DNA of 64,000 bases from an uncultured Ruminococcus sp. (lineage in GTDB: Bacteria > Bacillota > Clostridia > Oscillospirales > Ruminococcaceae): contig CAMKMD010000004.1 of the NCBI GenBank assembly GCA_946413815.1, forward strand, positions 1-64,000, written 5' to 3'. Positions 2,193 to 52,200 of the stretch are shown in pieces. A program made the position numbers and the translations under genes. How positions within the stretch are numbered: position 1 is the first letter of the stretch; each line of letters begins with the position of its first letter. The notes beneath the pieces are model-generated. The model was not told the DNA's origin. It ran no database searches and saw only the letters and a program-made list of their open reading frames with translations.

Positions 2193-4280
2193 TCACACTC
2201 CGAAAAGAAGCTTGTCGTATGCCGGGAAGGGATAGTAGTCCTCGGCAGTCATGGTCTCTGCCTTGTCAGCAGCGCTGCGGAGCTTATCCATAGCAGGCAG
2301 CATGGTATCACGGACGAACTCTGAAGCGGGAACGATTTCTGTGAATTCTCTGAGACCTGCAACAGCAGCCTCGAGCTCTGTGGTTGCTGCATCCATATCA
2401 TCTACGCAGCCGGAGAGCTCTGTTACCAGCTTTGTCTCGTAGCGGCAGGCTGCACCGGATACGCTCTTCTTTACGGATACTGCTGATGCGGTATCAGCTG
2501 CGAACCTTGCAACAGCGGGGATTATCTCCTTGCGAGCCATATCTATCATGGTGGAAGCTTCGATGTTGACCTGCTTTACGTAGTTCTCAAGCATGATATC
2601 GCGGCGTGAGTAGATCTCAGCCTCTGTGAAGATGCCATGAGAGGTGAGCATCTCGATGTTCTTCTTGTCGCAGATATGCGGCATAGCATCGGCTGTAGTC
2701 CTGAGGTTCATAAGGCCTCTCTTCTCAGCCTCCTTTATCCATGCGTCATCGTAGCCGTTGCCGTTGAATATTATGCGCTTGTGATCCTTGATAGTCTTCT
2801 TGATAAGATCGTGGAGAGCCTTGTTGAAGTTCTTTGCGCTCTCGAGCTTGTCAGCGAACTGCCTGAGTACCTCTGCAACAGCGGCATTGAGATGGATGTT
2901 AGCACAGGAGATGCTGTTTGAAGAACCGAGCATACGGAACTCGAACTTGTTGCCGGTGAAGGCGAAGGGGGAGGTACGGTTGCGGTCGGTGGAATCCTTG
3001 CTGAACTGGGGGAGAACATCAACGCCCAGCTTCATCTTCTCCTTGGCTGTACCGCCGTAGGGCTTGTCAGCCTCGATAGCATCAAGAACAGCAGTGAGCT
3101 CGTCGCCGAGGAAGATGGAGATCACGGCGGGAGGAGCCTCGTTTGCACCAAGACGGTGATCGTTGCCGGCGGTTGCAACGGAGAGACGGAGCAGATCCTG
3201 ATAGTCGTCAACAGCCTTGATTACTGCTGCGAGGAAGAGGAGGAACTGTGCGTTCTCTGCGGGAGTCTCACCGGGAGAGAGGAGGTTCTCGCCCTGGTCA
3301 GTGGAGATGGACCAGTTGTTGTGTTTGCCGGAGCCGTTTACGCCTGCGAAGGGCTTTTCATGAAGCAGGCATACAAGACCGTGGCGGAGGGCTACCTTCT
3401 GCATTACCTCCATGGTCAGCTGGTTGTGATCGGCTGCGATATTCGTTGTATCATAGATAGGAGCGAGCTCATGCTGAGCGGGCGCTACCTCGTTGTGCTT
3501 GGTCTTTGCGAGTATGCCCAGCTTCCAGAGCTCCTTGTCCAGATCAGCCATATACTCGGCAACACGGGGCTTGATGGAGCCGAAGTAGTGATCGTCCATC
3601 TCCTGTCCCTTGGGAGGCATAGCACCGAAGAGGGTGCGGCCTGTCATGATGAGGTCCTTTCTCTTCTTCCACATCTCACGGTCAACAAGGAAGTACTCCT
3701 GCTCGGGACCGACAGAGGTCTTTACGCTCTTTACCTTGTCGTTTCCGAAGAGCTTCAGGATACGAAGAGCCTGCTTGTTGATAGCCTCCATTGAGCGGAG
3801 GAGGGGCACCTTCTTGTCGAGGGCCTCGCCTGTGTAGGAGCAGAAGGCTGTGGGGATGTAGAGGGTGCCGTCCTTGATGAAGGCATAGGATGTGGGATCC
3901 CATGCTGTATAGCCTCTTGCCTCGAATGTTGCACGAAGACCGCCGGAGGGGAAGGATGAAGCATCAGGCTCGCCCTTTACCAGTTCCTTGCCGGAGAATT
4001 CCATTATTACTCTTCCGTCGGGGGCGGGGGAGATGAAGCTGTCATGCTTCTCGGCAGTAACGCCTGTCATAGGCTGGAACCAGTGTGTGTAGTGTGTAGC
4101 GCCTTTCTCGATAGCCCAGTCCTTCATGGCTGCGGCTACTGCATTTGCTACGGAGATATCAAGGGGAGTGCCCCTGTCGATAGTCCTCTTCAGTGAACGG
4201 TACACCTTGTCTGAAAGTGTAGCCTTCATTATCCTGTCGTCAAATACCATTGAACCGAAATACTCTGTTACCTTTTCCAT
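2193..4280 (-). CDS. glnN: glutamine synthetase, type III
   Basis: ATP-dependent condensation of glutamate and ammonia to glutamine. The 695-residue length and the type III landmarks ([20 protein letters not shown] near the N-terminus, [33 protein letters not shown]) separate it from the ~440-residue type I enzyme. These motifs carry the metal-binding glutamates and the ATP/glutamate-site residues, and all look intact. It is the third gene of the leftward nitrogen operon, 20 bases after pyrG and five before dapF. It is probably the main glutamine synthetase of the cell, because the type I-like homologue at 14306-15583 has lost catalytic residues. Expression probably depends on the amt leader. 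Confidence 0.96.
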
Positions 4281-4300
4281 TTTTAATATCCTCCTTATAA

Positions 4301-5920
<1,620 letters not shown>

Positions 5921-5977: not shown

Positions 5978-7786
5978 TCAGGAACGCTCCCATTCCTCGG
6001 AGTCGTGAAGTGCGTTGTAGCCTTCCTCTCCGGTACGGATCTTGATGACGTTCTCGATGTCGTAGATGAACATCTTGCCGTCGCCGTAGTTTCCTGTATA
6101 GAGAGCGGATTTAGCGGCTGCGATTACCTTTTCTACAGGTACTGCGCATACAGCTATCTCAGCCTTGATCTTGGGGAGCAGATTCATCTCGACGGTAGTA
6201 CCACGGTAGTAGTTCTTCTGTCCGTTCTGCATACCGCAGCCGAGGACGTTGGTAACTGTGATACCCTTTACGTCGATAGCTTCCATAGCCTCAATGAAGG
6301 CCTGGAGCTTCTGCTGTTTGAATACGACTACTACATTAGTCATCTTGGGACGTCCGTCAACGGAAGGTACAGAGTAGTTCTTTACTTCTACTGCCTCGTC
6401 AACAGGAACAACGGGAGCTGTGGGAGTGCCTACGACCTCGACGCTCTTTGCGTCCTCCTTGGTGTAACCGTACATTGCGGCATCGTTCATGGAAGGAGCG
6501 AAGTCAGCATAAGAGGAGATAAGGCCGTGCTCTGTGATATCGAGACCGATGATCTCTTCCTGCTCTGAAGCACGGAGGCCGATAGTAGCCTTGATTGCGA
6601 AGAATACGATAGTCATGCTTACAGCTGTGAATACTGCGATAGCTGCAAAGCCGCCGAGCTGTCTGCCGAGGAGTCCGAAGCCGCCGCCGTAGAAGAGACC
6701 TGCCAGCTGGTTGCCGTTCTGGTCAGCCAGTGAGTAGCCGGGAACCTCAGGGTTTGCAAGAAGGCCGACTGCGATAGTTCCCCAGATACCGTTCATCATG
6801 TGTACGGCAACTGCGCCGACAGGATCGTCGATGTGGAGAACATAGTCAAGGAACCATACGCCGAAGCATACCAGGAAACCGGAAACAACGCCGACGATTG
6901 TTGCACCGAGAGCGTCAGTTACGTCACAGGGAGCAGTGATACCAACAAGGCCTGCCAGTGAGGCGTTAAGACACATTGAAACATCGGGCTTGCCGTATTT
7001 CAGCCATGTGAAGATCATGCAGGTAACTGTTGCAACTGCGGGAGCGATGGTAGTTGTAAGGAATACTGAGCCGAGCTGCTCAACAGATGTACAAGCGGCA
7101 CCGTTGAATCCGTACCAGCCGAACCAGAGGATGAAGCATCCGAGAGCACCTATTGTAAGGTTGTGTCCGGGGATGGCGTTTACCTTTACCTCGCCGTCCT
7201 TGGTCTTGTGGAACTTACCGATTCTCGGGCCGAGGATTGCTGCGCCTACGAGAGCTGCGATACCGCCGACCATGTGGATATGTGCGCTTCCTGCGAAATC
7301 ATGGAAGCCCCACTGTGCCAGCCAGCCGCCGCCCCAGCCCCAGTGAGCTTCGATGGGGTAAACGACTGCACTGATGATAGCTGAGTAAACGCAGTATGAA
7401 AGGAACTTGGTACGTTCTGCCATGGCACCGGAAACGATAGTTGCCGTGGTCGCACAGAACACAAGGTTGAATACGAAGTTTGACCAGTCGAATGTGCCGT
7501 AAGATGTGAAGATATCAAATCCGGGCTGACCGATGATGCCGGCGACGTCTGCTCCGAAGAGAAGACCGAAGCCTATGAGAATGAAAACTACTGTACCGAT
7601 ACAGAAGTCCATAAGGTTCTTCATAATGATATTGCCTGCATTCTTAGCGCGGGTGAATCCTGTCTCCACCATTGCGAATCCTGCCTGCATAAAGAATACG
7701 AGGGCGGCTCCTATAAGGAACCATACGCCGAATAACTTACTGTCAGTCTGCGCTGTCACTTCTTGTATAATAGTCTGTGCGTCCAT
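5978..7786 (-). CDS. amt: ammonium transporter fused to P-II regulatory domain
   Basis: A fusion of an Amt/Mep ammonium channel (about residues 1-430, multiple membrane helices) and a GlnK-type P-II protein (about 480-602). Channel landmarks include FMQAGFAMVETGF and the pore histidines in GFHDFAGSAHIHMVGG and VHMMNGIWG. The P-II part keeps the start MTNVVVVFKQQKL and a T-loop followed by LLPKIKAEI. The usual T-loop tyrosine that is uridylylated (in EYVVDLLPK-type sequences) is replaced in YRGTTVEMNLLPK, so control is more likely by direct ATP/ADP/2-oxoglutarate binding. I chose the start MDAQTI, 13 codons inside the longest frame, because AGGAGGT lies just upstream. It is the first gene of its operon, with a long structured leader. 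Free GlnK normally plugs AmtB; here the plug would be tethered. Confidence 0.95.
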   Translation of the reverse strand: MDAQTIIQEVTAQTDSKLFGVWFLIGAALVFFMQAGFAMVETGFTRAKNAGNIIMKNLMDFCIGTVVFILIGFGLLFGADVAGIIGQPGFDIFTSYGTFDWSNFVFNLVFCATTATIVSGAMAERTKFLSYCVYSAIISAVVYPIEAHWGWGGGWLAQWGFHDFAGSAHIHMVGGIAALVGAAILGPRIGKFHKTKDGEVKVNAIPGHNLTIGALGCFILWFGWYGFNGAACTSVEQLGSVFLTTTIAPAVATVTCMIFTWLKYGKPDVSMCLNASLAGLVGITAPCDVTDALGATIVGVVSGFLVCFGVWFLDYVLHIDDPVGAVAVHMMNGIWGTIAVGLLANPEVPGYSLADQNGNQLAGLFYGGGFGLLGRQLGGFAAIAVFTAVSMTIVFFAIKATIGLRASEQEEIIGLDITEHGLISSYADFAPSMNDAAMYGYTKEDAKSVEVVGTPTAPVVPVDEAVEVKNYSVPSVDGRPKMTNVVVVFKQQKLQAFIEAMEAIDVKGITVTNVLGCGMQNGQKNYYRGTTVEMNLLPKIKAEIAVCAVPVEKVIAAAKSALYTGNYGDGKMFIYDIENVIKIRTGEEGYNALHDSEEWERS

Positions 7787-7854
7787 AATAAGACCTCCTA
7801 TGAGTATTATAACAGCCTCAGACACACCCTGTACGGAGGTATTGTCTGAAATAC

Positions 7855-7892
7855 AAAAGGGTGCATGATGCCATCATTGACATCATACACCC
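7855..7892 (-). promoter_or_regulatory. ANTAR-type hexaloop hairpin in the amt leader, with T-tract
   Basis: In the amt mRNA a 12-base-pair stem (7881-7892 with 7859-7870, one G-U pair) is topped by a T-G and a C-G pair and a six-base loop, AATGAT (7873-7878 on the minus strand). A1 and G4 of the loop match the known ANTAR recognition pattern. TTTTGTATTT follows the stem, so the same element could terminate transcription. The top (TC-AATGAT-GG) parallels the gltB leader hairpin (TC-AAAGAC-GC). Confidence 0.6.
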
Positions 7893-7920
7893 CATTGTGT
7901 ATGGAATCAGCGCTGATTAC

Positions 7921-7956
7921 AAAAAAAGAGAGCTACGGACTTCCTGTCCGCAGCTC
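7921..7956 (-). terminator. promoter-proximal intrinsic terminator in the amt leader
   Basis: An eleven-base-pair GC-rich stem (7946-7956 with 7930-7940) with loop AGGAA is followed by seven uridines in the leftward transcript. It starts only about 13 bases after the predicted transcription start, so it is an attenuator, not the end of another gene. Confidence 0.75.
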
Positions 7957-7975
7957 CCTTGCTGTTTACAATGCC

Positions 7976-8004
7976 ATTATAGACCCTTTTCGCAGGTTTG
8001 TCAA
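7976..8004 (-). promoter_or_regulatory. amt operon promoter
   Basis: Full-consensus boxes on the minus strand: TTGACA (7999-8004), a 17-base spacer and TATAAT (7976-7981). The predicted start is near 7969, giving a leader of about 180 bases before the amt start codon. It is divergent from the gltB promoter about 120 bases away. Confidence 0.85.
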
Positions 8005-8127
8005 GGGCTTTTTTCAGATTTGTTAGTTTTTGATAATCATTTTCCGCTTTAAACACCAAAAGTATATGCAGGTCTGACAAAAGTGCTCAGAAACGCCTGA
8101 AATGACCTGTTTTTTTCAAAATGCCCC

Positions 8128-8156
8128 TTGACATTTGCGCTGCAAAGTGCTAAGAT
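8128..8156 (+). promoter_or_regulatory. gltB operon promoter
   Basis: TTGACA (8128-8133), 17-base spacer, TAAGAT (8151-8156). Transcription would start near 8163, leaving a leader of about 100 bases with two hairpins before the gltB start codon. The stretch 8005-8127 between the two divergent promoters shows no other feature that I can name. Confidence 0.85.
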
Positions 8157-8169
8157 AAAAAACAGGAAC

Positions 8170-8217
8170 AAGGACGTTTGTGCAGACTATCAGTCTGCCC
8201 GGACGTCCTTTATTTTA
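8170..8217 (+). terminator. promoter-proximal intrinsic terminator in the gltB leader
   Basis: An outer eight-base-pair stem (8170-8177 with 8203-8210) encloses an inner seven-base-pair stem (8182-8188 with 8192-8198). TATTTTATTA follows directly. It begins about seven bases after the predicted start of transcription, mirroring the amt leader. The GCAGA segments of this hairpin and of the next one could compete for the same partners, which would allow alternative folds. Confidence 0.65.
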
Positions 8218-8221
8218 TTAT

Positions 8222-8247
8222 GGTGCAGATCAAAGACGCTCTGCACC
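8222..8247 (+). promoter_or_regulatory. ANTAR-type hexaloop hairpin in the gltB leader
   Basis: An eight-base-pair stem (8222-8229 with 8240-8247), a T-C mismatch, a closing C-G pair (8231-8238) and the six-base loop AAAGAC (8232-8237). Loop positions A1 and G4 fit the ANTAR target pattern. It sits just before the ribosome site of gltB. Confidence 0.6.
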
Positions 8248-8266
8248 GGGAAGGCGAGTGAATGAG

Positions 8267-11200
8267 ATGGATAATTTCAGAAACGAATCTCCGTATGATC
8301 AGCAGGGGCTCTATGATCCCCGCTTTGAACACGATAACTGCGGTATCGGTGCAGTTGTGAGCATCAGGGGCGAGCAGTCAAGATATGTGGTTGACAGCGC
8401 TCTTACTATAGTAGAGAAGCTCGAGCACCGTGCCGGCAAGGATGCCGAGGGCAAGACCGGCGACGGTGTCGGACTTCTGGTGCAGATGCCCTACAGTTTC
8501 TTTATAACAGAGGCTGCAAAGCTGGGCTGCGATATCGGCGGCAAGGGCGATTTCGGCGTGGGTATGTTCTTCTTCCCGCAGAACGAGATGAAGCGCAGCC
8601 AGGCAAAGAAGCAGTTCGAGCTGATCGTCAGAAAGAACGGTATGGAGTTCGTATGCTGGAGAGAGGTGCCGGTATCACCCTGTATCCTCGGTCAGAAGGC
8701 ACTCGACAGTATGCCCCATATCATGCAGGCTTTCGTAAGGCGTCCTGAGGATTGTGCAAAGGGACTCGGTTTCGACAGAAAGCTCTTTATAGCAAGAAGA
8801 GAGTTCGAGCAGTCCAACGAGAATACTTATGTATGCTCACTTTCAAGCCGCACTGTAGTATATAAGGGTATGTTCCTTGTTGACGAGCTGAGAAAGTTCT
8901 ATACGGATCTCCAGAGCGATACCTTCGTATCAGCTATCGCCACAGTGCATTCACGTTTCTCCACAAATACCAACCCGAGCTGGCAGAAGGCTCATCCGAA
9001 CCGCCTTATAGTACATAACGGCGAGATAAATACAATCACAGGCAACGCCGACAAGATGCTTGCCCGTGAGGAGACCATGTCCTGTGAGGCTCTCAGCGGC
9101 GATATGCACAGGATACTCCCCCCGCTGAACGTGAACGGTTCAGACTCCGCAAGACTTGATAACTCTCTTGAGTTCCTTGTAATGTCGGGTATGCCACTTC
9201 CCCTCGCAGTAATGATAATGATACCCGAGCCCTGGAAGAACGACAGGACCATATCAAAGGCGAAATACGATCTTTATCAGTACTACGCCACTATGATGGA
9301 GCCCTGGGACGGCCCCGCATCTATCATATTCTCCGACGGAGAGATCATGGGCGCAGTCCTTGACAGGAACGGTCTCCGCCCCTCACGCTACTGCGTGACC
9401 AGCGACGGATTCCTGATACTCTCCTCCGAGACCGGATGTATCGACATACCGCCGGAGAAGATAGTAAAGAAGGATCGTCTCCGCCCCGGAAAGATGCTCC
9501 TTGCAGACACTAAGCAGGGCCGCATAATCGAGGATGACGAGATCAAGAATACCTACGCATCCCGCCAGCCATACGGCGAATGGCTCGATTCCAACCTTGT
9601 ACGTCTCCATGACCTGCATATCCCCAACAAGGGCGTCAGGACCTACACAGAGGAGGAGCTTGCAAAGCTCCAGAAGGCCTTCGGATATACCTATGAAGAA
9701 GTTCGCACTTCCATACTCCCCATGGCAGAGAAAGGCGCAGAGCCCATAGCTTCCATGGGCAGCGATATACCGCTCCCGCCGCTGGATAAGCAGTCTCCGC
9801 CCCTTTTCAACTACTTCCGCCAGCTTTTCGCGCAGGTCACCAATCCGCCTTTTGATGCTATCCGTGAGGAGAGCGTAACCGATACCAGCGTATACCTTGG
9901 CAAGGACGGCAACATCCTCGAGGAGAAGCCGGAGAACTGCCATGTGCTCAAGATAGAGAACCCGATACTTACAGAGACTGATATGTTAAAGATAAGAAGT
10001 CTCAGCGGCAAGGGACTCAGAAGCGCAGTCATCCCTATAACATATTATATAGGCACCTCACTCGAAAAGGCCGTTGAGCGTCTCTTCATAGATGCAGACA
10101 AGGCATACCGCGACGGTGCGAATATACTCATACTCTCAGACAGAGATGTGGACGAGTTCCACTGTGCGATCCCTTCACTGCTTGCAGTTGCAGCTCTCCA
10201 GCAGCACCTTGTAAACACAAAGAAGCGCACATCAGTTGCAATGGTACTTGAATCAGCTGAGCCCAGGGAGGTACACCACTTCGCAGCACTCCTCGGATAC
10301 GGCGCCTGTGCAGTTAATCCCTACCTCGCACATGAGACCATTCGTTCACTCATTGAGGAGGGCTCCCTTGACAAGGATTTCTATGCTGCTGAGGATGACT
10401 ACAATTCAGCCATACTCCACGGCATTGTAAAGATAGCTTCCAAGATGGGAATCTCCACAATACAGTCCTATCAGGGCAGCAAGCTCTTTGAAGCTGTCGG
10501 CATATCGGAGGAACTGATAAACAGATACTTCTCCGGCACAGTCAGCCGTATCGGCGGCATAGGTCTTGCGGATATCAGCCGCAGAACAGAGAAGCTGCAT
10601 ACAGCTGCATTCGACCCCCTCGGACTTGCTGTGAACAGCAGCATCGGAAGTGCGGGCAGCCACAAGCTGCGCAGCGGAAAGAGCGAGCATCTCTACACCC
10701 CCGAGACCATACACCTCCTCCAGCAGGCGGCATGGACGGGAAGCTATGATACCTTCAAGGCCTACACCGCAGCCGTTACCCGTGAGGACAGCGAACTGAC
10801 ACTGCGCAGTCTCCTTGATATACGCTTTGACGAGAACGGTGGCATCCCCATAGACGAGGTTGAGTCGGTGGAGAGCATCTGCCGCCGCTTCAAGACAGGC
10901 GCCATGTCCTACGGCTCCATCTCACAGGAAGCTCACGAATGTATGGCAGTCGCCATGAACAGCATCGGCGGCAAGTCCAACAGCGGTGAGGGCGGCGAGA
11001 GCCCCGAGAGACTGAAGTCCGACAGATGCTCCGCGATCAAGCAGGTTGCATCGGGACGTTTCGGTGTAACATCGGAATACCTCGTTTCCGCACAGGAGAT
11101 ACAGATCAAGATGGCACAGGGCGCAAAGCCCGGCGAGGGCGGACATCTTCCCTCCGGAAAGGTTTATCCCTGGATCGCAAAGACACGTCACTCGACGGCA

Positions 11201-12802
11201 GGCGTGGGACTTATCTCACCTCCTCCCCATCACGATATCTATTCCATCGAGGATCTTGCACAGCTGATATATGATCTGAAGAATGCCAATGACAGCGCAA
11301 GGATCTCTGTAAAGCTGGTATCCGAGGCCGGAGTCGGCACAGTTGCGGCAGGTGTTGCAAAGGCCGGCGCACAGGTAATACTCATCTCCGGCTATGACGG
11401 AGGTACCGGTGCGGCTCCAAAGAGCTCGATATACAATGCAGGTCTTCCGTGGGAGCTCGGCGTTGCTGAGGCACATCAGACACTCATGCTCAACGGTCTG
11501 CGTTCAAGAGTCCGCATAGAGACAGACGGAAAGCTCATGACTGGACGTGATGTCCTTGTAGCTGCTCTTCTCGGTGCTGAGGAGTTCGGATTCGCTACCG
11601 CACCGCTGGTAACCATGGGCTGTGTTATGATGAGAGTCTGCAACCTTGATACCTGTCCTATGGGTATAGCAACACAGAATCCCGAGCTGAGAAAGCGCTT
11701 CCGCGGCAAGCCTGAGTATATAGTGAACTTCATGCACTTCATCGCTCAGGAAGTAAGGGAGTATATGGCAAAGCTCGGCATACGCACATTCGATGAGCTC
11801 GTAGGCCGCAGCGACCTCCTGCAGGTTAAGGAAACCACAGCAGACAAGAATATAGACTTCACGAATATACTTGCATCAGCAGTAAGCGGAGAGAAGCAGC
11901 ACTTCGATCCTGAAGATATTTATGATTTTGAACTTGACAAGACCATAGATCGACGTGTTATAATGAAGAAGCTGGGAGCCGCTTTAAAGAACGGCACACC
12001 CAAGTCCATTTCCATAGACGTTGTCAATACAGACCGCTCGGTAGGTACTCTCACGGGTGCCGAGATAACACGCATCCACGGCGAGAATACCCTCCCCGAT
12101 GACACCTTCACAGTCAGCTGCACAGGCAGCGGCGGACAGTCCTTCGGCGCATTCATACCCAAGGGACTCACTCTCAGGCTCACAGGCGACAGCAATGACT
12201 ACTTCGGCAAGGGTCTCTCAGGCGGAAAGCTCATACTCACTCCTCCCGCCGGCGCAGGCTTCGATGCAAGCGAGAATATCATCGTCGGAAACGTAGCACT
12301 CTACGGTGCTACCTCCGGCAAGGCCTTCATCAATGGCATAGCAGGAGAGCGCTTCTGTGTAAGAAACTCCGGTGCTATAGCAGTATGTGAAGGAACAGGC
12401 GATCACGGCTGCGAGTATATGACAGGCGGAAGAGCAGTCATACTCGGCAATACCGGCAAGAACTTTGCTGCCGGTATGTCAGGCGGCATAGCCTACGTGC
12501 TCGATGAAAAGCATGACCTCTACACACGTCTGAACAAGGCTCTCGTTTCACTTGAAGCCGTGACGGATGAAGAGGATATAAACGAGCTCAGGGAGATAAT
12601 CACGGAGTATGCAGAGGCAACAGCTTCACCGAAGGCAGCAGCAATACTTGCCGACTTCGACCGCTGTCTGCCGGGCTTCAAGAAAGTCATCCCGCACGAT
12701 TACGCAAAGATACAGAGCACTGTCAAGTCGCTTGAAAGATCCGGCGTATCACATGAGCAGGCTGAGATAGAAGCCTTTGAACTGATAACCAAGGGGGCTT
12801 GA
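8267..12802 (+). CDS. gltB: glutamate synthase, large (alpha) subunit
   Basis: Transfers the amide nitrogen of glutamine to 2-oxoglutarate, giving two glutamates, with electrons delivered by the GltD subunit. The 1511-residue protein has a ~24-residue propeptide ending in FEHDN, then the N-terminal nucleophile cysteine (C25, CGIGAVVS). Next come the class II amidotransferase domain, the central and FMN-binding synthase domain (KTGAMSYGSISQEAHECMA; ISGYDGGTGAAPKSS; a 3Fe-4S cysteine cluster near CNLDTCPMGIATQ) and the C-terminal beta-helix GXGXG domain. I chose MDNFRNES because the longer reading frame starts inside the leader terminator. It heads the rightward nitrogen operon, with gltD four bases downstream. 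Confidence 0.97.
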   Translation: MDNFRNESPYDQQGLYDPRFEHDNCGIGAVVSIRGEQSRYVVDSALTIVEKLEHRAGKDAEGKTGDGVGLLVQMPYSFFITEAAKLGCDIGGKGDFGVGMFFFPQNEMKRSQAKKQFELIVRKNGMEFVCWREVPVSPCILGQKALDSMPHIMQAFVRRPEDCAKGLGFDRKLFIARREFEQSNENTYVCSLSSRTVVYKGMFLVDELRKFYTDLQSDTFVSAIATVHSRFSTNTNPSWQKAHPNRLIVHNGEINTITGNADKMLAREETMSCEALSGDMHRILPPLNVNGSDSARLDNSLEFLVMSGMPLPLAVMIMIPEPWKNDRTISKAKYDLYQYYATMMEPWDGPASIIFSDGEIMGAVLDRNGLRPSRYCVTSDGFLILSSETGCIDIPPEKIVKKDRLRPGKMLLADTKQGRIIEDDEIKNTYASRQPYGEWLDSNLVRLHDLHIPNKGVRTYTEEELAKLQKAFGYTYEEVRTSILPMAEKGAEPIASMGSDIPLPPLDKQSPPLFNYFRQLFAQVTNPPFDAIREESVTDTSVYLGKDGNILEEKPENCHVLKIENPILTETDMLKIRSLSGKGLRSAVIPITYYIGTSLEKAVERLFIDADKAYRDGANILILSDRDVDEFHCAIPSLLAVAALQQHLVNTKKRTSVAMVLESAEPREVHHFAALLGYGACAVNPYLAHETIRSLIEEGSLDKDFYAAEDDYNSAILHGIVKIASKMGISTIQSYQGSKLFEAVGISEELINRYFSGTVSRIGGIGLADISRRTEKLHTAAFDPLGLAVNSSIGSAGSHKLRSGKSEHLYTPETIHLLQQAAWTGSYDTFKAYTAAVTREDSELTLRSLLDIRFDENGGIPIDEVESVESICRRFKTGAMSYGSISQEAHECMAVAMNSIGGKSNSGEGGESPERLKSDRCSAIKQVASGRFGVTSEYLVSAQEIQIKMAQGAKPGEGGHLPSGKVYPWIAKTRHSTAGVGLISPPPHHDIYSIEDLAQLIYDLKNANDSARISVKLVSEAGVGTVAAGVAKAGAQVILISGYDGGTGAAPKSSIYNAGLPWELGVAEAHQTLMLNGLRSRVRIETDGKLMTGRDVLVAALLGAEEFGFATAPLVTMGCVMMRVCNLDTCPMGIATQNPELRKRFRGKPEYIVNFMHFIAQEVREYMAKLGIRTFDELVGRSDLLQVKETTADKNIDFTNILASAVSGEKQHFDPEDIYDFELDKTIDRRVIMKKLGAALKNGTPKSISIDVVNTDRSVGTLTGAEITRIHGENTLPDDTFTVSCTGSGGQSFGAFIPKGLTLRLTGDSNDYFGKGLSGGKLILTPPAGAGFDASENIIVGNVALYGATSGKAFINGIAGERFCVRNSGAIAVCEGTGDHGCEYMTGGRAVILGNTGKNFAAGMSGGIAYVLDEKHDLYTRLNKALVSLEAVTDEEDINELREIITEYAEATASPKAAAILADFDRCLPGFKKVIPHDYAKIQSTVKSLERSGVSHEQAEIEAFELITKGA

Positions 12803-12806
12803 GAAA

Positions 12807-14294
12807 ATGGGAAAGGCAACAGGATTCCTTGAATACACAAGGACGGAGGCAGCCGCAAAGGAGCCTCTTGAGAGAATAAAGGACTTCAACGAATTCCATA
12901 TCCCGCTCGGCGAGGAGCAGAGGAAGGAGCAGGCATCAAGGTGTATGGACTGCGGAGTGCCATTCTGTCAGAACGGCAGGATGCTCTGCGGCATGATGTC
13001 AGGCTGTCCCCTCAACAACCTCATTCCCGAGTGGAACGATCTTATTTACCGCGGACAGAAGGAGCAGGCTCTTGAACGTCTCCTTATGACGAACAGCTTT
13101 CCGGAATTCACCTCAAGGGTGTGTCCGGCGCTGTGCGAGAAGGCCTGCACCTGCGGGGTGTACGACAGCCCCGTAACGGTAAAGGAGAATGAGAACTCGC
13201 TGATAGAGTACGGCTTTGAGAAGGGGCTTATGCAGCCGCAGATACCGGCTGTAAGGAGCGGCAAGAAGGTAGCTGTCATCGGTTCAGGTCCGGCAGGACT
13301 TGCAGCAGCCGATACCCTCAACAAGCGCGGCCATAGCGTTACAGTATACGAGCGCTCCGACCGTCCGGGCGGACTTCTGATGTACGGCATCCCGAACATG
13401 AAGCTCGAGAAACATATCATCGAGCGCCGCCTCAGACTCATGGAGGCGGAGGGCGTTGAGTTCGTGACGAATGCTGATGTGGGAAAAACCATATCCGCAG
13501 AGGAGATAAAGGAAAGCAGCGATGCGGTCATACTCGCCTGCGGTTCATCCAATCCGAGGGATATAAAGACTGAGGGCAGGGATGCGCAGGGTATCTTCTT
13601 TGCTGTTGATTTCCTGAAAGCCACTACAAAAAGCCTGCTTGATTCCGGGCTGTCAGACGGGAAGTATATCTCCGCAAAGGATAAGAACGTGGTCATAATC
13701 GGCGGCGGTGATACCGGAAACGACTGCGTGGGCACCTCAGTGCGCCACGGATGCAGGTCAGTGACTCAGCTTGAGATGATGCCGAAGCTCCCCGACGAAA
13801 GGGCGGGTAATAATCCCTGGCCGGAGTGGCCGAGAGTCTGCAAGACGGACTACGGTCAGGAGGAGGCAATTGCCGTATTCGGCCATGATCCCCGTATCTA
13901 TCAGACAACAGTAAAGGAATTCATCAAGGATGACAAGGGCGCGCTGACTGCGATAAAGACAGTCAAGCTCGAGTTCGGTACTGATCCCGAGACCGGCAGA
14001 CGCACCATGAATGAGGTAAAGGGCAGCGAGGAGATCATCCCCTGCGAACTCTGCCTTATCGCCGCAGGATTCCTCGGATGTCAGGGCTATGTTGCTGAGG
14101 CCTTCGGAGCTGAGCTCGACCAGCGTACGAATGTGAAGACTGCTCCCGGCAGTCACAGGACAAGTACAGACAAGGTATTCACCGCCGGTGATATGCACAT
14201 CGGACAATCCCTTGTGGTGCGTGCTATACGTGAAGGACGCGACGCAGCAGCAGATGTGGATGAATACCTCATGGGATACACAAACCTAAGATAA
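12807..14294 (+). CDS. gltD: glutamate synthase, small (beta) subunit
   Basis: NAD(P)H-oxidising flavoprotein that feeds electrons to GltB. The N-terminal cysteine groups for iron-sulfur clusters are visible (CMDCGVPFC, CGMMSGCPLNN, CPALCEKACTCG). The FAD-binding fold follows with GSGPAGLAAADTL near residue 155, and the NAD(P)H fold with GGGDTGNDCVGTSVRHG near residue 300. At 495 residues it has the usual beta-subunit length. It follows gltB by four bases and precedes the GlnA-like gene by eleven, so it is clearly cotranscribed. Confidence 0.96.
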   Translation: MGKATGFLEYTRTEAAAKEPLERIKDFNEFHIPLGEEQRKEQASRCMDCGVPFCQNGRMLCGMMSGCPLNNLIPEWNDLIYRGQKEQALERLLMTNSFPEFTSRVCPALCEKACTCGVYDSPVTVKENENSLIEYGFEKGLMQPQIPAVRSGKKVAVIGSGPAGLAAADTLNKRGHSVTVYERSDRPGGLLMYGIPNMKLEKHIIERRLRLMEAEGVEFVTNADVGKTISAEEIKESSDAVILACGSSNPRDIKTEGRDAQGIFFAVDFLKATTKSLLDSGLSDGKYISAKDKNVVIIGGGDTGNDCVGTSVRHGCRSVTQLEMMPKLPDERAGNNPWPEWPRVCKTDYGQEEAIAVFGHDPRIYQTTVKEFIKDDKGALTAIKTVKLEFGTDPETGRRTMNEVKGSEEIIPCELCLIAAGFLGCQGYVAEAFGAELDQRTNVKTAPGSHRTSTDKVFTAGDMHIGQSLVVRAIREGRDAAADVDEYLMGYTNLR

Positions 14295-14305
14295 CGGAGG
14301 AAGAT

Positions 14306-15583
14306 ATGATCTATTCAGAAAACGAGATATTGCAGTATATCGAAGAGAACGACGTCAAGTTCGTAAAGCTGACCTTCTGTGATCTGCACGGAAGGCTGAA
14401 GAATATTTCCATACTCTCATCGGAGCTCGCTGTGACCTTTGAGAGCGGTCTCAGGATAGCAGCCAAGAAGATAGCCGGCTTCGGTGCAGCAAACGGCAGA
14501 GACCTTTTCCTGTTCCCGGATGCACAGACCATGACAGTCCTTCCCTGGAGACCGCAGCAGGGAAGAGTAATAAGGATGTACTGCTATATCCGTTACAAGG
14601 ACGGCACCCCCTTCGAGGGCGACAGCCGTTTCTTCCTGAAGAAGGCCATGAAGGCGGCTGTCAAGGCGGGTTACTGTTTCCGCTTCGGCACCTCCTGCGA
14701 GTTCACACTCTTCCGAACTGACAGCAACGGTCTCCCTGTCAAGGTGCCGCATGACTATGCCGGCTACTGCGATACCGCACCCGATGACAAGGGGGAGAAT
14801 ATCCGGCGCGATGTATGTCTCACTCTTGAACAGATGGGGATACAGCCTGTATCCTCACGTCATGAGAGCGGCTGCGGCCAGCATGAGATAGATTTCAACT
14901 CCTCTTCCGCACTGAAGGCTGCGGATACCTTCCTCAGCTTCCGCTCCGCTGTAAAATCCGTTGCGGAGACTCACGGAGTGCACGCAAGCTTCATGCCGAA
15001 GCCGGTGCGGAACGACTGCGGCAACGGTATGCACATAAGCTTCAATGTCTTCCCCGACAGTGATTTCCTTGAGGAGAGGGGACAGGAGTGCTGCGGCATG
15101 ATAAAGAGCGCTGCAGCAGGTATAATGAAGCGTATGCGCGAGATCGCGATGTTCACAAATTCAACAGTCAATTCATACGAAAGGCTCGGTGAGTTCACTG
15201 CGCCGAGGGATATACTCTGGTCTGACGAGGAGGGCTCACAGTTGATACGCATGGCGCCCGACACCGATGACAATTCCGTGGAGCTGAGAGCAGCAGACTG
15301 CGTATGTGATCCGTATTTCGTTTTCGGACTTATGATATATGCAGCTCTTGAGGGCATAGAGCAGAGACAGGAGCTGCCTGCGAAGAACAGCAGCAGCGGA
15401 AGACTGCCTGAGACACTCGGCGAGGCTGCTGATACTGCCGAGGGATCAGAGTTCCTGAAAAGGTATATCCCGGGAAGCATCCTTGAGGAGCTTGTCAGGT
15501 ACAGCCGTGACGAGTGGAAGGAGTATTCCTCCGCCTATGACAAGGAAGCATTCGAGGACAAGAAGTATTTCTACACGCTCTGA
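14306..15583 (+). CDS. GlnA-like protein with degenerate active site (possible nitrogen-sensor partner)
   Basis: A 425-residue homologue of type I glutamine synthetase. The overall fold signatures remain (GQHEIDF, SFMPKP, NGMHIS, VNSYERL, VELRAADC). Aligned by eye to the Salmonella enzyme, several active-site positions are changed: the GPEPEF motif reads GTSCEF (first metal-binding glutamate lost), GYEAP reads EFTAP (ammonia-site glutamate lost), NRSASIR reads EGSQLIR (one substrate arginine lost), and the N-terminal DGSS motif is absent. It is therefore probably not an efficient glutamine synthetase. A true synthetase is encoded by glnN. It sits eleven bases before the ANTAR regulator, so I infer a role in sensing or partner control. 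A ligase acting on another amine remains possible. Confidence 0.75.
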   Translation: MIYSENEILQYIEENDVKFVKLTFCDLHGRLKNISILSSELAVTFESGLRIAAKKIAGFGAANGRDLFLFPDAQTMTVLPWRPQQGRVIRMYCYIRYKDGTPFEGDSRFFLKKAMKAAVKAGYCFRFGTSCEFTLFRTDSNGLPVKVPHDYAGYCDTAPDDKGENIRRDVCLTLEQMGIQPVSSRHESGCGQHEIDFNSSSALKAADTFLSFRSAVKSVAETHGVHASFMPKPVRNDCGNGMHISFNVFPDSDFLEERGQECCGMIKSAAAGIMKRMREIAMFTNSTVNSYERLGEFTAPRDILWSDEEGSQLIRMAPDTDDNSVELRAADCVCDPYFVFGLMIYAALEGIEQRQELPAKNSSSGRLPETLGEAADTAEGSEFLKRYIPGSILEELVRYSRDEWKEYSSAYDKEAFEDKKYFYTL

Positions 15584-15594
15584 GGAGGAAGATT

Positions 15595-16176
15595 TTGGAA
15601 AAGATCCTTATAGTATCAGGTAATAAGGCCGCTTCCGAAGCACTCCTTGAATTCATACGCGGAACGTTCAAATGCTCCCCGAAGATAGTTGAATCGGCAT
15701 ATCAGGCAAAGACTCATCTTGAATCAGACCTGATGACCGAGCTCGTCATGATAAACTCGCCCCTCCTTGACGAATCCGGCGTGGAATTCGCCGAGTATGT
15801 AACGGGGAATACAGCAGCGAACTGCATACTGCTGATAAAGAGCGAGACAGCCGAGAAGATAGAGGAACGCGCCGAGAAGGCGGGCATCATCGTTGTCGGC
15901 AGGCCCTTCAGCAAGTCGGTGCTCTATCAGATTGTCAGGACGATTGATATAGCCCTTAACAGGTCAGCGGAGCTGTATGTCAGAAATGCCCGGCTTGAAG
16001 AGAGGATAGACGAGATACAGACCATCGACAAGGCGAAGTTCATGCTTATGGAGTACAAGGGCATGACAGAGAGCGAGGCTCATACCTATATCGAGCAGTA
16101 TGCCATGAACAAGCGCAAGAAGAAGAGCCTTGCGGCGGCTGCGGTGATAGACAAGCTCAGTGAGCAGTATTTGTAA
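15595..16176 (+). CDS. ANTAR-domain antitermination regulator with pseudo-receiver
   Basis: A 193-residue two-domain protein. Residues 1-120 form a CheY-like receiver that lacks the phosphorylation pocket: the paired acidic residues after strand 1 read VSGNK, the acceptor aspartate position reads MINSPLL, and the conserved lysine reads GRPF. A coiled-coil linker leads to a C-terminal ANTAR domain (about 130-190) with the family core LMEYKGMTESEAH and YAMNKRKKKS. ANTAR proteins bind paired or single hexaloop RNA hairpins and stop intrinsic terminators from forming. The start is a TTG with GAGGAGG upstream. Candidate targets lie in both nitrogen leaders and before asnB. Without a phosphorylatable receiver it is probably driven by a protein partner or ligand, with the adjacent GlnA-like protein the obvious candidate. 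Confidence 0.88.
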   Translation: MEKILIVSGNKAASEALLEFIRGTFKCSPKIVESAYQAKTHLESDLMTELVMINSPLLDESGVEFAEYVTGNTAANCILLIKSETAEKIEERAEKAGIIVVGRPFSKSVLYQIVRTIDIALNRSAELYVRNARLEERIDEIQTIDKAKFMLMEYKGMTESEAHTYIEQYAMNKRKKKSLAAAAVIDKLSEQYL

Positions 16177-16188
16177 GAAGGTGCGGGA

Positions 16189-17610
16189 ATGTTTGATACG
16201 ATACACGAGGAATGCGGAGTATTCGGGATATACGAAAACAAGACCTCCAATGTTGCGGCCTCTGTCTGCTACGGGTTATATGCCCTTCAGCACAGGGGAC
16301 AGGAGAGCTGCGGCATAACGGTCTGCGATGACGGGATATTCCGGCACAAGCGTGCGGACGGCCTTGTTTCAGAGGTCTTCAGCAAGGAGGAGATAGCAAA
16401 GCTCGGCAGCGGAAATATGGCTGTCGGACACGTACGATACTCCACCACCGGCGGCCACAGCCACAATAACATACAGCCCCTTGTCATACGCCATGTCAAG
16501 GGAAATATGGCTCTCGTCCACAACGGCAACCTTGTGAATGCCGCGGAGCTGAGAAGCTCCTTCGAGATGACAGGAGCCATATTCCACGGCACGTCCGATA
16601 CCGAGGCCATAGCCTATTCCATCGTGCGGGAGCGCCTGACGAGCAGCTCCACAGAGGAAGCTGTGGAGAGGGCGATGCCATTCATAAGGGGTGCTTACTC
16701 CTGCATACTCATGACGGCAACGAAGCTCATTGCCTTCCGTGATCCGGACGGCTTCCGGCCGCTCTGCATCGGCAGGACACATGACGGCGCCTATATCGTC
16801 GCATCTGAATCCTGTGCTCTCGAGACAGTAGGTGCCGAGTTCGTCCGAGATGTGGAGGCCGGAGAGATAGTTGTCATAGACGGCAGCGGACTGCGTTCCA
16901 TACGCACCAACTGTGCCGGCAGAAGGAATATCTGCATATTCGAGTATATCTACTTCGCAAGGCCGGATTCCGTGATAGACGGAGTACCCGTGCATCTTGC
17001 GAGAGTGCGTGCGGGAAGACTCCTTGCAGAGCACAGCCCTGCAGATGCGGATATAGTCATAGGAGTGCCGGATTCGGGCCTCGATGCAGCCCTCGGCTAT
17101 GCCCAGGCGAGCGGCATACCCTACGGCATAGGCTTCATCAAGAACAAGTACATCGGCAGGAGCTTCATACAGCCCGACCAGGACCAGCGTGAGAATGCCG
17201 TCAGGATAAAGCTCAATGCTATCCGCGAGACTGTCGGCGGCAAGCGCGTGGTAATGATAGATGATTCGATCGTAAGAGGTACTACGAGCGGCAGGATAGT
17301 ACGCCTGCTGCGGGAGGCGGGAGCAAGCGAGGTGCACGTAAGGATATCCTCGCCGCCCTTCCTGCATTCATGCTACTTCGGAACGGATATCGATTCCGAG
17401 GAGAATCTCATAGCAGGCAGATGCCATTCGACGGAGGAGATAGCAAGGTATATCGGTGCTGATTCTCTTGCCTACCTCCCGACGGAATGCCTCAGCGGCC
17501 TTATCGGCGGTGGCAGCGGCTTTTGCATGGGCTGCTTTACAGGCAGCTATCCCGTAGACGTTTCAGGCGCCGGCGGAAAGAATAAATTTGATGAGAAGAT
17601 ACATAGGTGA
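16189..17610 (+). CDS. purF: amidophosphoribosyltransferase
   Basis: First committed step of purine synthesis: PRPP plus glutamine gives phosphoribosylamine. An eight-residue propeptide (MFDTIHEE) precedes nucleophile C9 in CGVFGIYEN. The PRPP-binding loop VVMIDDSIVRGTTSG is intact. Cysteines near the C-terminus (GFCMGCFTGSYP) and in HSCYFG place it in the iron-sulfur-containing Bacillus-type class. The 473 residues are full length. It is part of the glutamine-using rightward operon, twelve bases after the ANTAR gene, and is the only purine gene here, which suggests recruitment into nitrogen control. Confidence 0.96.
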   Translation: MFDTIHEECGVFGIYENKTSNVAASVCYGLYALQHRGQESCGITVCDDGIFRHKRADGLVSEVFSKEEIAKLGSGNMAVGHVRYSTTGGHSHNNIQPLVIRHVKGNMALVHNGNLVNAAELRSSFEMTGAIFHGTSDTEAIAYSIVRERLTSSSTEEAVERAMPFIRGAYSCILMTATKLIAFRDPDGFRPLCIGRTHDGAYIVASESCALETVGAEFVRDVEAGEIVVIDGSGLRSIRTNCAGRRNICIFEYIYFARPDSVIDGVPVHLARVRAGRLLAEHSPADADIVIGVPDSGLDAALGYAQASGIPYGIGFIKNKYIGRSFIQPDQDQRENAVRIKLNAIRETVGGKRVVMIDDSIVRGTTSGRIVRLLREAGASEVHVRISSPPFLHSCYFGTDIDSEENLIAGRCHSTEEIARYIGADSLAYLPTECLSGLIGGGSGFCMGCFTGSYPVDVSGAGGKNKFDEKIHR

Positions 17611-17625
17611 GATCATTTAAACGGT

Positions 17626-17651
17626 GCTGTACATCAACGGCGATGTGCAGC
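17626..17651 (+). promoter_or_regulatory. ANTAR-type hexaloop hairpin between purF and asnB
   Basis: A ten-base-pair stem (17626-17635 with 17642-17651, one G-U pair) carries the six-base loop AACGGC, again with A1 and G4. The flanks TC-loop-GA resemble the two leader hairpins. No uridine tract follows, so here it may affect mRNA processing or asnB translation rather than termination. Confidence 0.5.
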
Positions 17652-17684: not shown

Positions 17685-19265
17685 ATGTGTACGATAATGG
17701 CATACTGCGGTCTTGACGGCGGCACGGAAAAGGTCATGACGGGACTTAAAGCAACGGTGTCCCGCGGACCTGACGATCAGAGGATCGTGAAAGTTCCGGG
17801 AGGACTCCTCGGCTTTCAGAGACTTTCCATAATGGGACTGACACCTGAGGGTATGCAGCCCTTTGAGCTTGACGGCGATTTCGTTGTCTGCAACGGAGAG
17901 ATATACGGCTTCCGCAGACAGCGTGAGGAACTGAAAAAGCTCGGCTACACCTTCAGGAGCGACAGCGACTGCGAGATACTTCTCCCGCTCTACAGGGAGT
18001 ACGGAACGGATATGTTCGCCATGCTCGATGCCGAGTTTGCCTGCGTTATTTATGACAGCTCAGACCGCAGCTTCATAGCAGCAAGAGACCCGATAGGCAT
18101 ACGTCCGCTCTACTACGGCAAGGCGGAGGACGGCACCATGGTATTTGCCAGCGAGGCAAAGAACCTTGTGAAGATATGCAGCAGGATAATGCCCTTCCCG
18201 CCCGGACATTACTGGAAGGACGGCGAGTTCCGCTGCTACTGCGATATAACAAAGGTGGAAGAGGTCATACACGATGACCTTGAGACAGTGTGCAGGAATA
18301 TCCATGACAAGCTGGTTTCCGGCGTTGAGAAGAGACTCGATTCCGATGCAAAGGTGGGCTTTCTCCTCTCCGGCGGCCTTGATTCCTCACTGGTATGTTC
18401 CATTGCCCAGAGAAAGAGCGACAAGCCGATACGCACATTCGCCATCGGTATGAACACCGATGCCATCGACCTCAAATACGCAAAGCAGGTAGCTGACTAT
18501 ATCGGCAGCGACCACACAGAGGTCATAATAACCAGGGATGATGTTATTGCAGCGCTGGATGAAGTTATACATCTCCTCGGCACATTTGATATCACAACCA
18601 TACGTGCCAGCATGGGTATGTATCTTCTCTGCAAGGCCATCCACGAGCAGACAGATATCCGTGTTCTCCTGACCGGCGAGATATCCGATGAGCTCTTCGG
18701 ATACAAGTATACAGATTTTGCACCTTCTGCAGATGCCTTCCAGCAGGAATCCGTAAAGCGTGTACATGAGCTGCATATGTACGATGTGCTCCGTGCGGAC
18801 AGGTGTATTTCTGTAAACTCCCTTGAAGCAAGAGTACCCTTCGGCGACCTTGACTTTGTGAAGTACGTCATGGCAGTAGACCCGGAGATGAAGCTCAATA
18901 AATACAACAAGGGCAAGTACCTTCTCCGTCATGCCTTCGAGGGCGATTATCTCCCGCATGACATCCTTTACCGTGAGAAGGCAGCCTTCTCGGATGCTGT
19001 CGGACACTCCATGGTGGACTATCTCAAGGAGTATGCAGAGGAGCATTATCTGGACGAGGAGTATGAGCTCCTGCGCACCAGGTATACACACGCTCAGCCC
19101 TTTACAAAGGAATCACTGCTCTACCGTGAGATATTTGAGAAATACTATCCCGGCCAGAGTGATATGATCGTTGATTTCTGGATGCCCAACAAGGAGTGGG
19201 AGGGCTGCAACGTAAACGATCCCTCGGCAAGAGTGCTTTCAAACTACGGTGAGAGCGGAACATAA
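17685..19265 (+). CDS. asnB: asparagine synthase (glutamine-hydrolysing)
   Basis: Makes asparagine from aspartate, ATP and glutamine. The start MCTIMAYCG exposes catalytic Cys2 of the class II amidotransferase domain (residues 1-190). The synthetase domain has the PP-loop LLSGGLDSSLVC near residue 230 and the GEISDELFGYKYTDF segment. The 526 residues match the single-protein bacterial form. GGAGGG stands before the start. The 74-base gap after purF holds the hexaloop hairpin, so it is cotranscribed but perhaps separately tuned. It is the last gene of the rightward nitrogen operon. Confidence 0.94.
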   Translation: MCTIMAYCGLDGGTEKVMTGLKATVSRGPDDQRIVKVPGGLLGFQRLSIMGLTPEGMQPFELDGDFVVCNGEIYGFRRQREELKKLGYTFRSDSDCEILLPLYREYGTDMFAMLDAEFACVIYDSSDRSFIAARDPIGIRPLYYGKAEDGTMVFASEAKNLVKICSRIMPFPPGHYWKDGEFRCYCDITKVEEVIHDDLETVCRNIHDKLVSGVEKRLDSDAKVGFLLSGGLDSSLVCSIAQRKSDKPIRTFAIGMNTDAIDLKYAKQVADYIGSDHTEVIITRDDVIAALDEVIHLLGTFDITTIRASMGMYLLCKAIHEQTDIRVLLTGEISDELFGYKYTDFAPSADAFQQESVKRVHELHMYDVLRADRCISVNSLEARVPFGDLDFVKYVMAVDPEMKLNKYNKGKYLLRHAFEGDYLPHDILYREKAAFSDAVGHSMVDYLKEYAEEHYLDEEYELLRTRYTHAQPFTKESLLYREIFEKYYPGQSDMIVDFWMPNKEWEGCNVNDPSARVLSNYGESGT

Positions 19266-51963: not shown

Positions 51964-51984
51964 ATCTATTGTTGAAAATCAAAC

Positions 51985-52200
51985 AGGCAAACGGTGCTTT
52001 CCGGCGGTATACCGTGCGGAAAGGTAAAAGGGAAGCAGGTGAAGATCCTGCACGAGCCCGTCACTGTGATTGCGGAGCGTTATACTGATATGCCACTGAG
52101 AGATCGGGAAGGCTGTATGACGCATTGAGGCATAAGTCAGGAAACCTGCCGCTTGCTGGTACATGGCCGGAAAGGCCAGGGTCACGAGGTTCTGATCGTA
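51985..52200 (+). ncRNA. cobalamin riboswitch
   Basis: The conserved aptamer pieces appear in order: GGTGC (51993), AAAAGGGAAGCAGGTG from 52026, GATCCTGCACGAGCCCGTC, CACTGTGAT, GCCACTGAG near 52092, GGGAAGG at 52106, and the B12 box AAGTCAGGAAACCTGCC at 52134-52150. The following stem (GGCC near 52166 with GGCC near 52174) probably belongs to the L5-L13-type regulatory part. A terminator lies 40-60 bases further on. Binding of adenosyl- or methylcobalamin should switch off the downstream chelatase and transport genes. Confidence 0.95.

Follow-up and report, generated by a model that had tools for sequence, protein, structure and literature searches.

The locus

The window, that is, the whole analysed stretch of 64,000 nucleotides from an uncultured Ruminococcus sp. 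(contig CAMKMD010000004.1), contains a cluster of nitrogen-assimilation genes together with a gene for a protein carrying an ANTAR domain. The subject of this analysis is a set of RNA hairpins with six-base loops (hexaloops) in the leaders of these genes, and their candidate relationship to the ANTAR protein. The ammonium transporter gene amt lies on the minus strand and is divergent from a plus-strand run of gltB, gltD, a gene for a glutamine synthetase (GS)-like protein, the ANTAR gene, purF and asnB. The identities of Amt, GltB, GltD, the ANTAR protein, the PurF-type protein and AsnB were consistent with Pfam or NCBIfam, and the order gltB-gltD-GS-like-ANTAR-purF-asnB was kept in the named loci of relatives. 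The genes are as follows.

2193..5899, minus strand: pyrG and a gene for a 695-aa glutamine synthetase (type III by size and Pfam match), behind amt
5978..7786, minus strand: amt, ammonium transporter with a C-terminal P-II domain (Pfam)
8267..12802, plus strand: gltB, glutamate synthase large subunit (Pfam; alternative start GTG 8258)
12807..14294, plus strand: gltD, glutamate synthase small subunit (Pfam)
14306..15583, plus strand: GS-like protein, a conserved apparent pseudoenzyme (Pfam; NCBIfam GlnA below cut-off; active-site losses)
15595..16176, plus strand: ANTAR protein with a degenerate receiver (Pfam PF03861, 54.5 bits; alignment; model)
16189..17610, plus strand: purF (Pfam GATase and phosphoribosyltransferase domains)
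17685..19265, plus strand: asnB (NCBIfam asparagine synthase B, above cut-off)

The name gltD is presumed from the domain set. pyrG and the type III GS gene are probably co-transcribed with amt, in whose product the transporter and the P-II domain (PF00909 and PF00543) form one polypeptide.

Three hairpins and the amt leader

The first-pass annotation of this DNA had proposed that three hairpins, in the amt leader, the gltB leader and the gap between purF and asnB, mark one ANTAR antitermination circuit for nitrogen genes. Each was located, with six-base loops starting at 7878 (minus strand, AATGAT), 8232 (plus strand, AAAGAC) and 17636 (plus strand, AACGGC). When both strands of the window were scanned for hairpins of the form TC[AANGNN]G in which 8 or 9 of the 9 pairs form, there were exactly three matches, at these amt, gltB and asnB positions, whereas 60 dinucleotide shuffles of the window gave a mean of 0.38 matches and a maximum of 2. 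The triple match therefore exceeds chance, as had been claimed. Nevertheless, for one of the three, that of amt, the resemblance is coincidental. The amt leader reads as follows.

7976..8004, minus strand: promoter TTGACA-17-TATAAT (12/12 consensus matches; consensus match only)
7951..7964, minus strand: H1, CAGC[AAGGGA]GCTG, a single hexaloop hairpin close to the transcript 5′ end (loop 7960-7955)
7926..7960, minus strand: terminator T1, with a 5′ arm that begins at loop base 1 of H1
7905..7918, minus strand: palindrome AATCAGCGCTGATT, between T1 and P2
7884..7903, minus strand: P2, CATACAC[AATGGG]GTGTATG, a hexaloop hairpin overlapping the 5′ arm of T2 (loop 7896-7891)
7858..7893, minus strand: terminator T2, stem 7893-7858 with a T tail; this is the amt hairpin of the first-pass annotation (loop AATGAT)

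The AATGAT hairpin thus forms the top of an intrinsic terminator. Its A1 can pair with T6, which would reduce the loop to four bases. The hairpin was compared across 42 amt leaders (41 named relatives and the window; 2 of 44 without a recognisable P2 were excluded). The six-base-loop register was possible in 20 of them, A1 with G4 occurred in 3, and AANG in a single leader, that of the window itself. Against model R1, built from 59 gltB and asnB hairpins, it scored 9.1 bits (E 4.1). It was rejected as an ANTAR site.

Overlap with terminators is instead seen for other loops in the amt and gltB leaders, which the first-pass annotation had overlooked. In amt these are H1 and P2, each overlapping the 5′ arm of a terminator as in the EutV arrangement; for T1, the fold of 7930-7972 has a z of -5.5. 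With a search pattern that imposed the stem and not the loop, A1, A2 and G4 of H1 were found in 44/44 leaders, with G (33), A (6), C (4) or T (1) at position 3. P2 was located in 42/44 leaders; of these, A1 was kept in 41, A2 in 42 and G4 in 42, and position 3 was A in 34, T in 4 and C in 4. A1 and G4, previously named as the recognition bases, are borne out as kept bases by these counts, and A2 is kept too.

A perfect palindrome of at least 8 bases was found between the two terminators in 38/42 amt leaders and was absent in 4. Substitutions in its variants (TAGCGCTA, TTAAGCGCTTAA, TTAAGTACTTAA and TAACGTTA) preserve the symmetry. Since its centre is AGTACT in six leaders, G4 is not kept. In the window it could be read as AATC[AGCGCT]GATT, a classical first hairpin P1, but this candidate was rejected given AGTACT in six relatives and no palindrome in four. 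The palindrome may instead act in DNA, as an operator, or in RNA, by pairing with itself.

The gltB leader and the asnB hairpin

The corresponding plus-strand features are given below; both R1 scores are for members of the training set.

8128..8156, plus strand: gltB promoter TTGACA-17-TAAGAT (10/12 consensus matches)
8167..8178, plus strand: gltB H1, AAC[AAGGAC]GTT, a hexaloop close to the transcript 5′ end (loop 8170-8175)
8170..8220, plus strand: gltB leader terminator (stem 8170-8210) and T-rich tail (-26.6 kcal/mol, z -5.9)
8222..8247, plus strand: gltB H2, the gltB hairpin of the first-pass annotation, GGTGCAGATC[AAAGAC]GCTCTGCACC, immediately upstream of the ribosome-binding site (loop 8232-8237; R1 33.5 bits)
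17626..17651, plus strand: asnB hairpin, GCTGTACATC[AACGGC]GATGTGCAGC (loop 17636-17641; R1 31.8 bits; no terminator)

The gltB terminator has an interrupted stem and was missed by a simple terminator scan. The counterpart of amt H1 in this leader followed the pattern [AG]AC[A.....]GT[TC] in 57/61 leaders. The search imposed the stem and A1 and left A2 and G4 free; both were found in 57/57, with position 3 being G in 37, A in 12, T in 5 and C in 3. In all 57 of these leaders the loop and 3′ arm of H1 can pair with the arm ahead of the T-rich tail. Folded alone, the H1 segment preferred another weak pairing (-1.9 kcal/mol).

H2 was sought as the best hexaloop hairpin after the terminator tail, regardless of loop sequence. 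The score was reached in 51/61 leaders, and 48 of those 51 loops were AANG. The asnB hairpin reached the score in 36/59 leaders, 28 of them with AANG, and is absent from most deeper relatives. A terminator tail adjoins the gltB and asnB hairpins in 0/48 and 2/28 relatives, respectively, and both lie upstream of the ribosome-binding site; this position and the lack of an adjacent tail do not support them as antitermination sites. The claim that the three hairpins named at the outset are the places of antitermination thus finds no support, the amt one being itself a terminator. Conservation in relatives, the lack of which the first-pass annotation had set as a refuting outcome, held for the gltB and asnB hairpins, whose stems covary around an AANG loop, and failed for the amt loop AATGAT.

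A tandem hexaloop pair with a short linker was not seen at these leaders, which have one AANG hairpin per terminator, the amt palindrome being the sole candidate for a first hairpin; in a window-wide scan for dual hairpins, an A1/G4 pair was found among nitrogen leaders only at amt.

Covariation of the hairpins

The 59 hairpins of R1 had been picked for AANG and form a gap-free alignment. Two-sided changes were seen in 8/10 pairs, and covariation was 0.713, against 0.205 in shuffled alignments and at most 0.181 in slid-partner controls. T9, C10 and G17 were invariant across the rows, which the selection had not imposed. Pair 9-18 was U-A in 32 rows and unpaired in 27; the T.C mismatch below the closing C-G pair of gltB H2 belongs to the latter (27/59). 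This class of hairpin is under clear selection for both loop and stem. The set of hairpins linked to terminators comprised 54 rows (51 distinct), with stems imposed in part by the search patterns; here two-sided changes were seen in 4/5 pairs, with a covariation of 0.502 against 0.188. The second base pair is A-U or G-C in the terminator-linked hairpins and U-A or U.C in the terminator-free ones.

Further sites in this genome and its relatives

A search of the window's own genome with R1 gave ten matches at E <=10. The training genes gltB (7e-7) and asnB (2.9e-6) were followed by asnA, an aspartate-ammonia ligase gene (above the NCBIfam cut-off) from outside the training set, at E 2.4e-5. A hairpin at the diaminopimelate dehydrogenase gene (ddh), whose product also uses ammonia, was a weak match (E 0.26, rank 6/10). 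Matches C19, C1, C45, C21, C27 and C76 are located in reading frames or on the strand opposite them, and were treated as chance, as were L356-L360 and L362 of relatives, which lie in coding sequence. asnA is present in 52 genomes, one of them without the gene start, so that 51 leaders were examined; 41 have the hairpin. The ddh hairpin was present in 11/20 leaders locatable among 30 loci. In three of these (L227, L231 and L234) a TATAAT box is followed within ~10 bases by the hairpin and then the ribosome site, an arrangement so tight that a terminator has no room. The terminator-free loops lie 32-60 bases upstream of the start codon in the four gene sets measured, and neither the ribosome-binding site nor the start codon is therefore held inside a dual stem-loop.

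Other R1 matches in relatives were found ahead of a second GS-like/ANTAR operon (three genomes), of carA (a partial protein, under the cut-off as the end of the stretch cuts it) and of a FAD/NAD subunit gene adjoining a GltD-like gene. This genome has a second type III GS gene, whose leader carries the terminator-linked loop GAAAC[AATGGC]GTTTC; AANG was kept in 11/14 close orthologues.

In two Lachnospiraceae (L164:9827 and L165:9827) the ANTAR gene itself starts directly after GGAC[AAAGGG]GTTT, a loop that resembles the gene's ribosome-binding site, and in L164 terminator-linked AAAGGC loops also precede asnB and a gene for LL-diaminopimelate aminotransferase.

Co-occurrence of hairpins and ANTAR genes

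The genus sample comprised 60 genomes, 54 with an ANTAR gene and 6 without. The asnA hairpin was found in 41/47 genomes with ANTAR and 0/4 without (Fisher 8.4e-4), three of these four being incomplete. Any R1 match at E<=0.01 was found in 42/54 and 0/6, respectively (Fisher 3.7e-4); at E<=0.05 there were matches in 46 ANTAR genomes and one ANTAR-less genome. The leader loop of the second type III GS gene was present in 11/12 genomes with ANTAR and 0/2 without. One of these two genomes in which no ANTAR gene was found (G057, leader L254) has a recognisable second type III GS leader with the loop GTTGGC in place of AANGGC. These statistics ignore kinship, and several of the ANTAR-less genomes are incomplete drafts (completeness: G021 68, G034 87, G042 95, G053 74, G057 79, G013 98); the co-occurrence therefore supports a link between ANTAR and the hairpins rather than proving it.

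Separate classes of site for the two ANTAR proteins were considered and rejected. On sorting by hand, the asnA hairpin was present in 38/41 genomes with the gltB-operon ANTAR and in 3/6 with only the other, so that neither ANTAR alone is required.

The ANTAR protein and its GS-like neighbour

The protein encoded at 15595-16176 contains an ANTAR domain (PF03861, 54.5 bits, cut-off 27.3) and can be aligned with Rv1626, EutV and AmiR. The EutV residues reported to contact the hexaloop map to K148, E159, H163, M171, N172, R174 and K176 (by alignment, with an inferred numbering offset). EutV Arg142 and Arg168 are not kept, being I141 and E167, and EutV Tyr164 corresponds to His163, as it does to a His in AmiR by alignment. 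The EutV contacts thus appear, by alignment, to be largely kept. Pfam called no receiver domain in this protein. The place of the phosphorylated Asp is Asn54 in 17/17 aligned sequences, which makes control by phosphorylation unlikely. An AlphaFold model (mean pLDDT 70.6) was confident for the ANTAR part only, and showed alternating strands and helices ahead of a long helix at pLDDT 57-68.

Its GS-like neighbour scored 259.6 bits against NCBIfam GlnA (cut-off 429). For this protein we assume the residue numbering and roles of the Salmonella GS. The equivalents of Asp50, Glu327 and Arg339 were replaced in 73/73 copies and that of Glu129 in 71/73; Glu131, Glu212, Glu220, His269, Arg321 and Arg359 were kept in 69 to 73 of 73. 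The protein is apparently a degenerate, catalytically dead type I glutamine synthetase. The second ANTAR gene of this genome likewise adjoins a degenerate GS. Across the order, ANTAR was found in 114/197 genomes, and 20 of the 30 best-scoring loci had a GS gene in the flank of ANTAR; Glu327 was replaced in half of these (10/20). The GS genes beside ANTAR in these loci (L171-L200) form a range, with ~70% identity to a canonical GS at one end and, at the other, variants that carry Lys in place of Glu327 (9/20).

A proposed regulon and its alternatives

Taken together, these data point to a probable Ruminococcus regulon of nitrogen assimilation, in which an ANTAR protein would act after initiation through single AANGNN hexaloops at two kinds of site, with the dead GS as its switch. 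The proposal draws on the hairpins and their covariation, the conserved loops, the gene content, the co-occurrence, and the loss of the phosphorylated Asp and of GS catalytic residues. The earlier idea of one ANTAR-linked circuit for nitrogen genes is supported, though the general idea is not new, since a 2012 paper (PMC3369931) reported that ANTAR acts on amt, glutamate synthase and GS genes through dual hairpins.

The ANTAR protein would recognise single hairpins with a loop A-A-N-G-N-N closed by C-G. At the first kind of site (amt twice, gltB, the second type III GS gene), the loop shares bases with the 5′ arm of a terminator in the leader, and ANTAR, once bound, would keep the small hairpin in place and so block the terminator. 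At the second kind (gltB again, asnB, asnA, ddh), a terminator-free loop precedes the start codon, and binding may act on translation start or mRNA stability. A structure sequestering the Shine-Dalgarno (SD) sequence and opened by ANTAR was rejected here, as an inspection by eye showed no conserved pairing. At gltB, it would be inconsistent for one protein both to open the terminator and to repress, except as a brake, so we lean towards a supporting role for the terminator-free hairpin. Our guess at the sign of regulation is induction under nitrogen shortage. The protein would be switched not by phosphorylation but by its operon neighbour, the dead GS, reporting glutamine or glutamate. The more detailed picture, of a dead GS as glutamine sensor of a single-hexaloop ANTAR, of one regulon working at the two levels of terminator read-through and of translation or mRNA stability, and of a gltB leader carrying both switches, is put forward tentatively, with a little under an even chance of being right.

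Several observations weigh against the proposed regulon. Known antitermination requires two hexaloops and a short linker, and here there is one per terminator. The hairpin was missing at the score used in 13/61 gltB and 31/59 asnB leaders, and asnA lacked it in 6/47 ANTAR-bearing genomes; 12/54 such genomes gave no R1 match at E<=0.01 under strict filters. Loop exceptions occur in ANTAR-bearing genomes (GATGGC in L145, GAAGGG in L112), a T-rich stretch follows the asnA hairpin in 6/26, and the leader of this genome's own second GS-like/ANTAR operon is without such a hairpin. Moreover, only six genomes lack ANTAR; they are related, and some are incomplete (completeness range 64-98%), so that absence may be an artefact, and in G042, which belongs to this group, R1 gave a weak match at 0.034.

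The regulon might be narrower, with classical ANTAR antitermination only, and the hairpins before the ribosome site serving as stabilisers or spacers with a different binding partner, or as ANTAR sponges. Overlap with a terminator is the published position of ANTAR sites; Ramesh 2012 (PMC3369931) names ammonium transporters, glutamate synthase and glutamine synthetase as targets, and the 2022 structure paper (PMC8934654) mentions a sequestering RNA, EutX. However, the terminator-free class has the identical AANG loop and closing C-G pair, with the selection on loop and stem noted above, recurs ahead of several genes linked to ammonia and is absent from those examined genomes that lack ANTAR, and we regard this narrower explanation as unlikely. 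It is more improbable still that the ANTAR gene is a mere neighbour and that the hairpins are bound by another RNA-binding protein or by a small RNA pairing with the loop. The differing second base pair of the two classes would fit such a partner, but ANTAR is known to contact A1 and G4, the hairpins co-occur with ANTAR, and loop position 3 is free, with all four bases seen in amt H1 and gltB H1, which argues against a small RNA. As for a chance match of three ordinary terminators or spacers, this holds for the amt AATGAT hairpin; for those of gltB and asnB it is refuted by their covariation and loop conservation, as well as by the excess over shuffled sequence, and as a general account it can practically be set aside.

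Relation to known systems

EutV-type antitermination (Enterococcus faecalis eut) uses two hexaloops with a 5-12 base linker (Ramesh 2012, PMC3369931). The present sites resemble it in the six-base loop with A1 and G4, the small hairpin over a terminator 5′ arm and the nitrogen genes, but differ in having one hexaloop per terminator, a degenerate receiver and additional terminator-free sites. The 2022 structure paper (NAR, PMC8934654) describes an ANTAR dimer binding a single hexaloop as a unit and predicts single-loop sites without a polymerase timing constraint. The candidate sites described here share that single-hexaloop form, yet in contrast to the prediction single loops also overlap terminators. 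With the ANTAR site thus redefined as a single hexaloop, the locus offers a natural conserved set beside a probable regulator. Actinobacterial ANTAR RNAs repress translation through dual stem-loops, ~37% of which hold the ribosome site or start codon (BMC Microbiol 2021, PMC8164766). The terminator-free sites are similarly near the translation start and need no terminator, but they are single hairpins that end ahead of the ribosome site.

In the AmiC-AmiR system an ANTAR antiterminator is controlled by a ligand-binding partner. The window likewise places an ANTAR gene beside a candidate partner gene, in this case a degenerate GS, an arrangement that also recalls NasS and the antiterminator NasT which it controls (PMC3795266). 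In Gram-positive bacteria, GlnR is under the control of a feedback-inhibited, active GS, which contacts it directly (PMC9249791). It is from this contact and from the control of NasT by NasS that we infer the dead GS to be the sensor of the ANTAR protein. As with GS-GlnR, a GS adjoins a regulator and is the proposed reporter of glutamine; unlike it, the regulator is of an RNA-binding rather than a DNA-binding type and the GS is apparently dead. An ANTAR protein tied to a degenerate GS would be an RNA-level parallel of that circuit. A search of the open-access literature found no paper on a GS-ANTAR pair or on ANTAR in Ruminococcus, and likewise nothing on single hexaloops at terminators, terminator-free hairpins before the ribosome site or pairing with a dead GS. 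Older work exists on a clostridial glnA-linked antiterminator. The host genus is central to rumen fibre digestion, and nitrogen sensing in clostridial relatives without GlnR or NtrC can now be tested with short RNAs and two proteins.

Other features of the window

Weak Rfam matches to microRNAs at 7750-8300 were set down to chance. The sole Rfam element of the window is a cobalamin riboswitch (RF00174) at 51975-52167 on the plus strand, with 108 bits.

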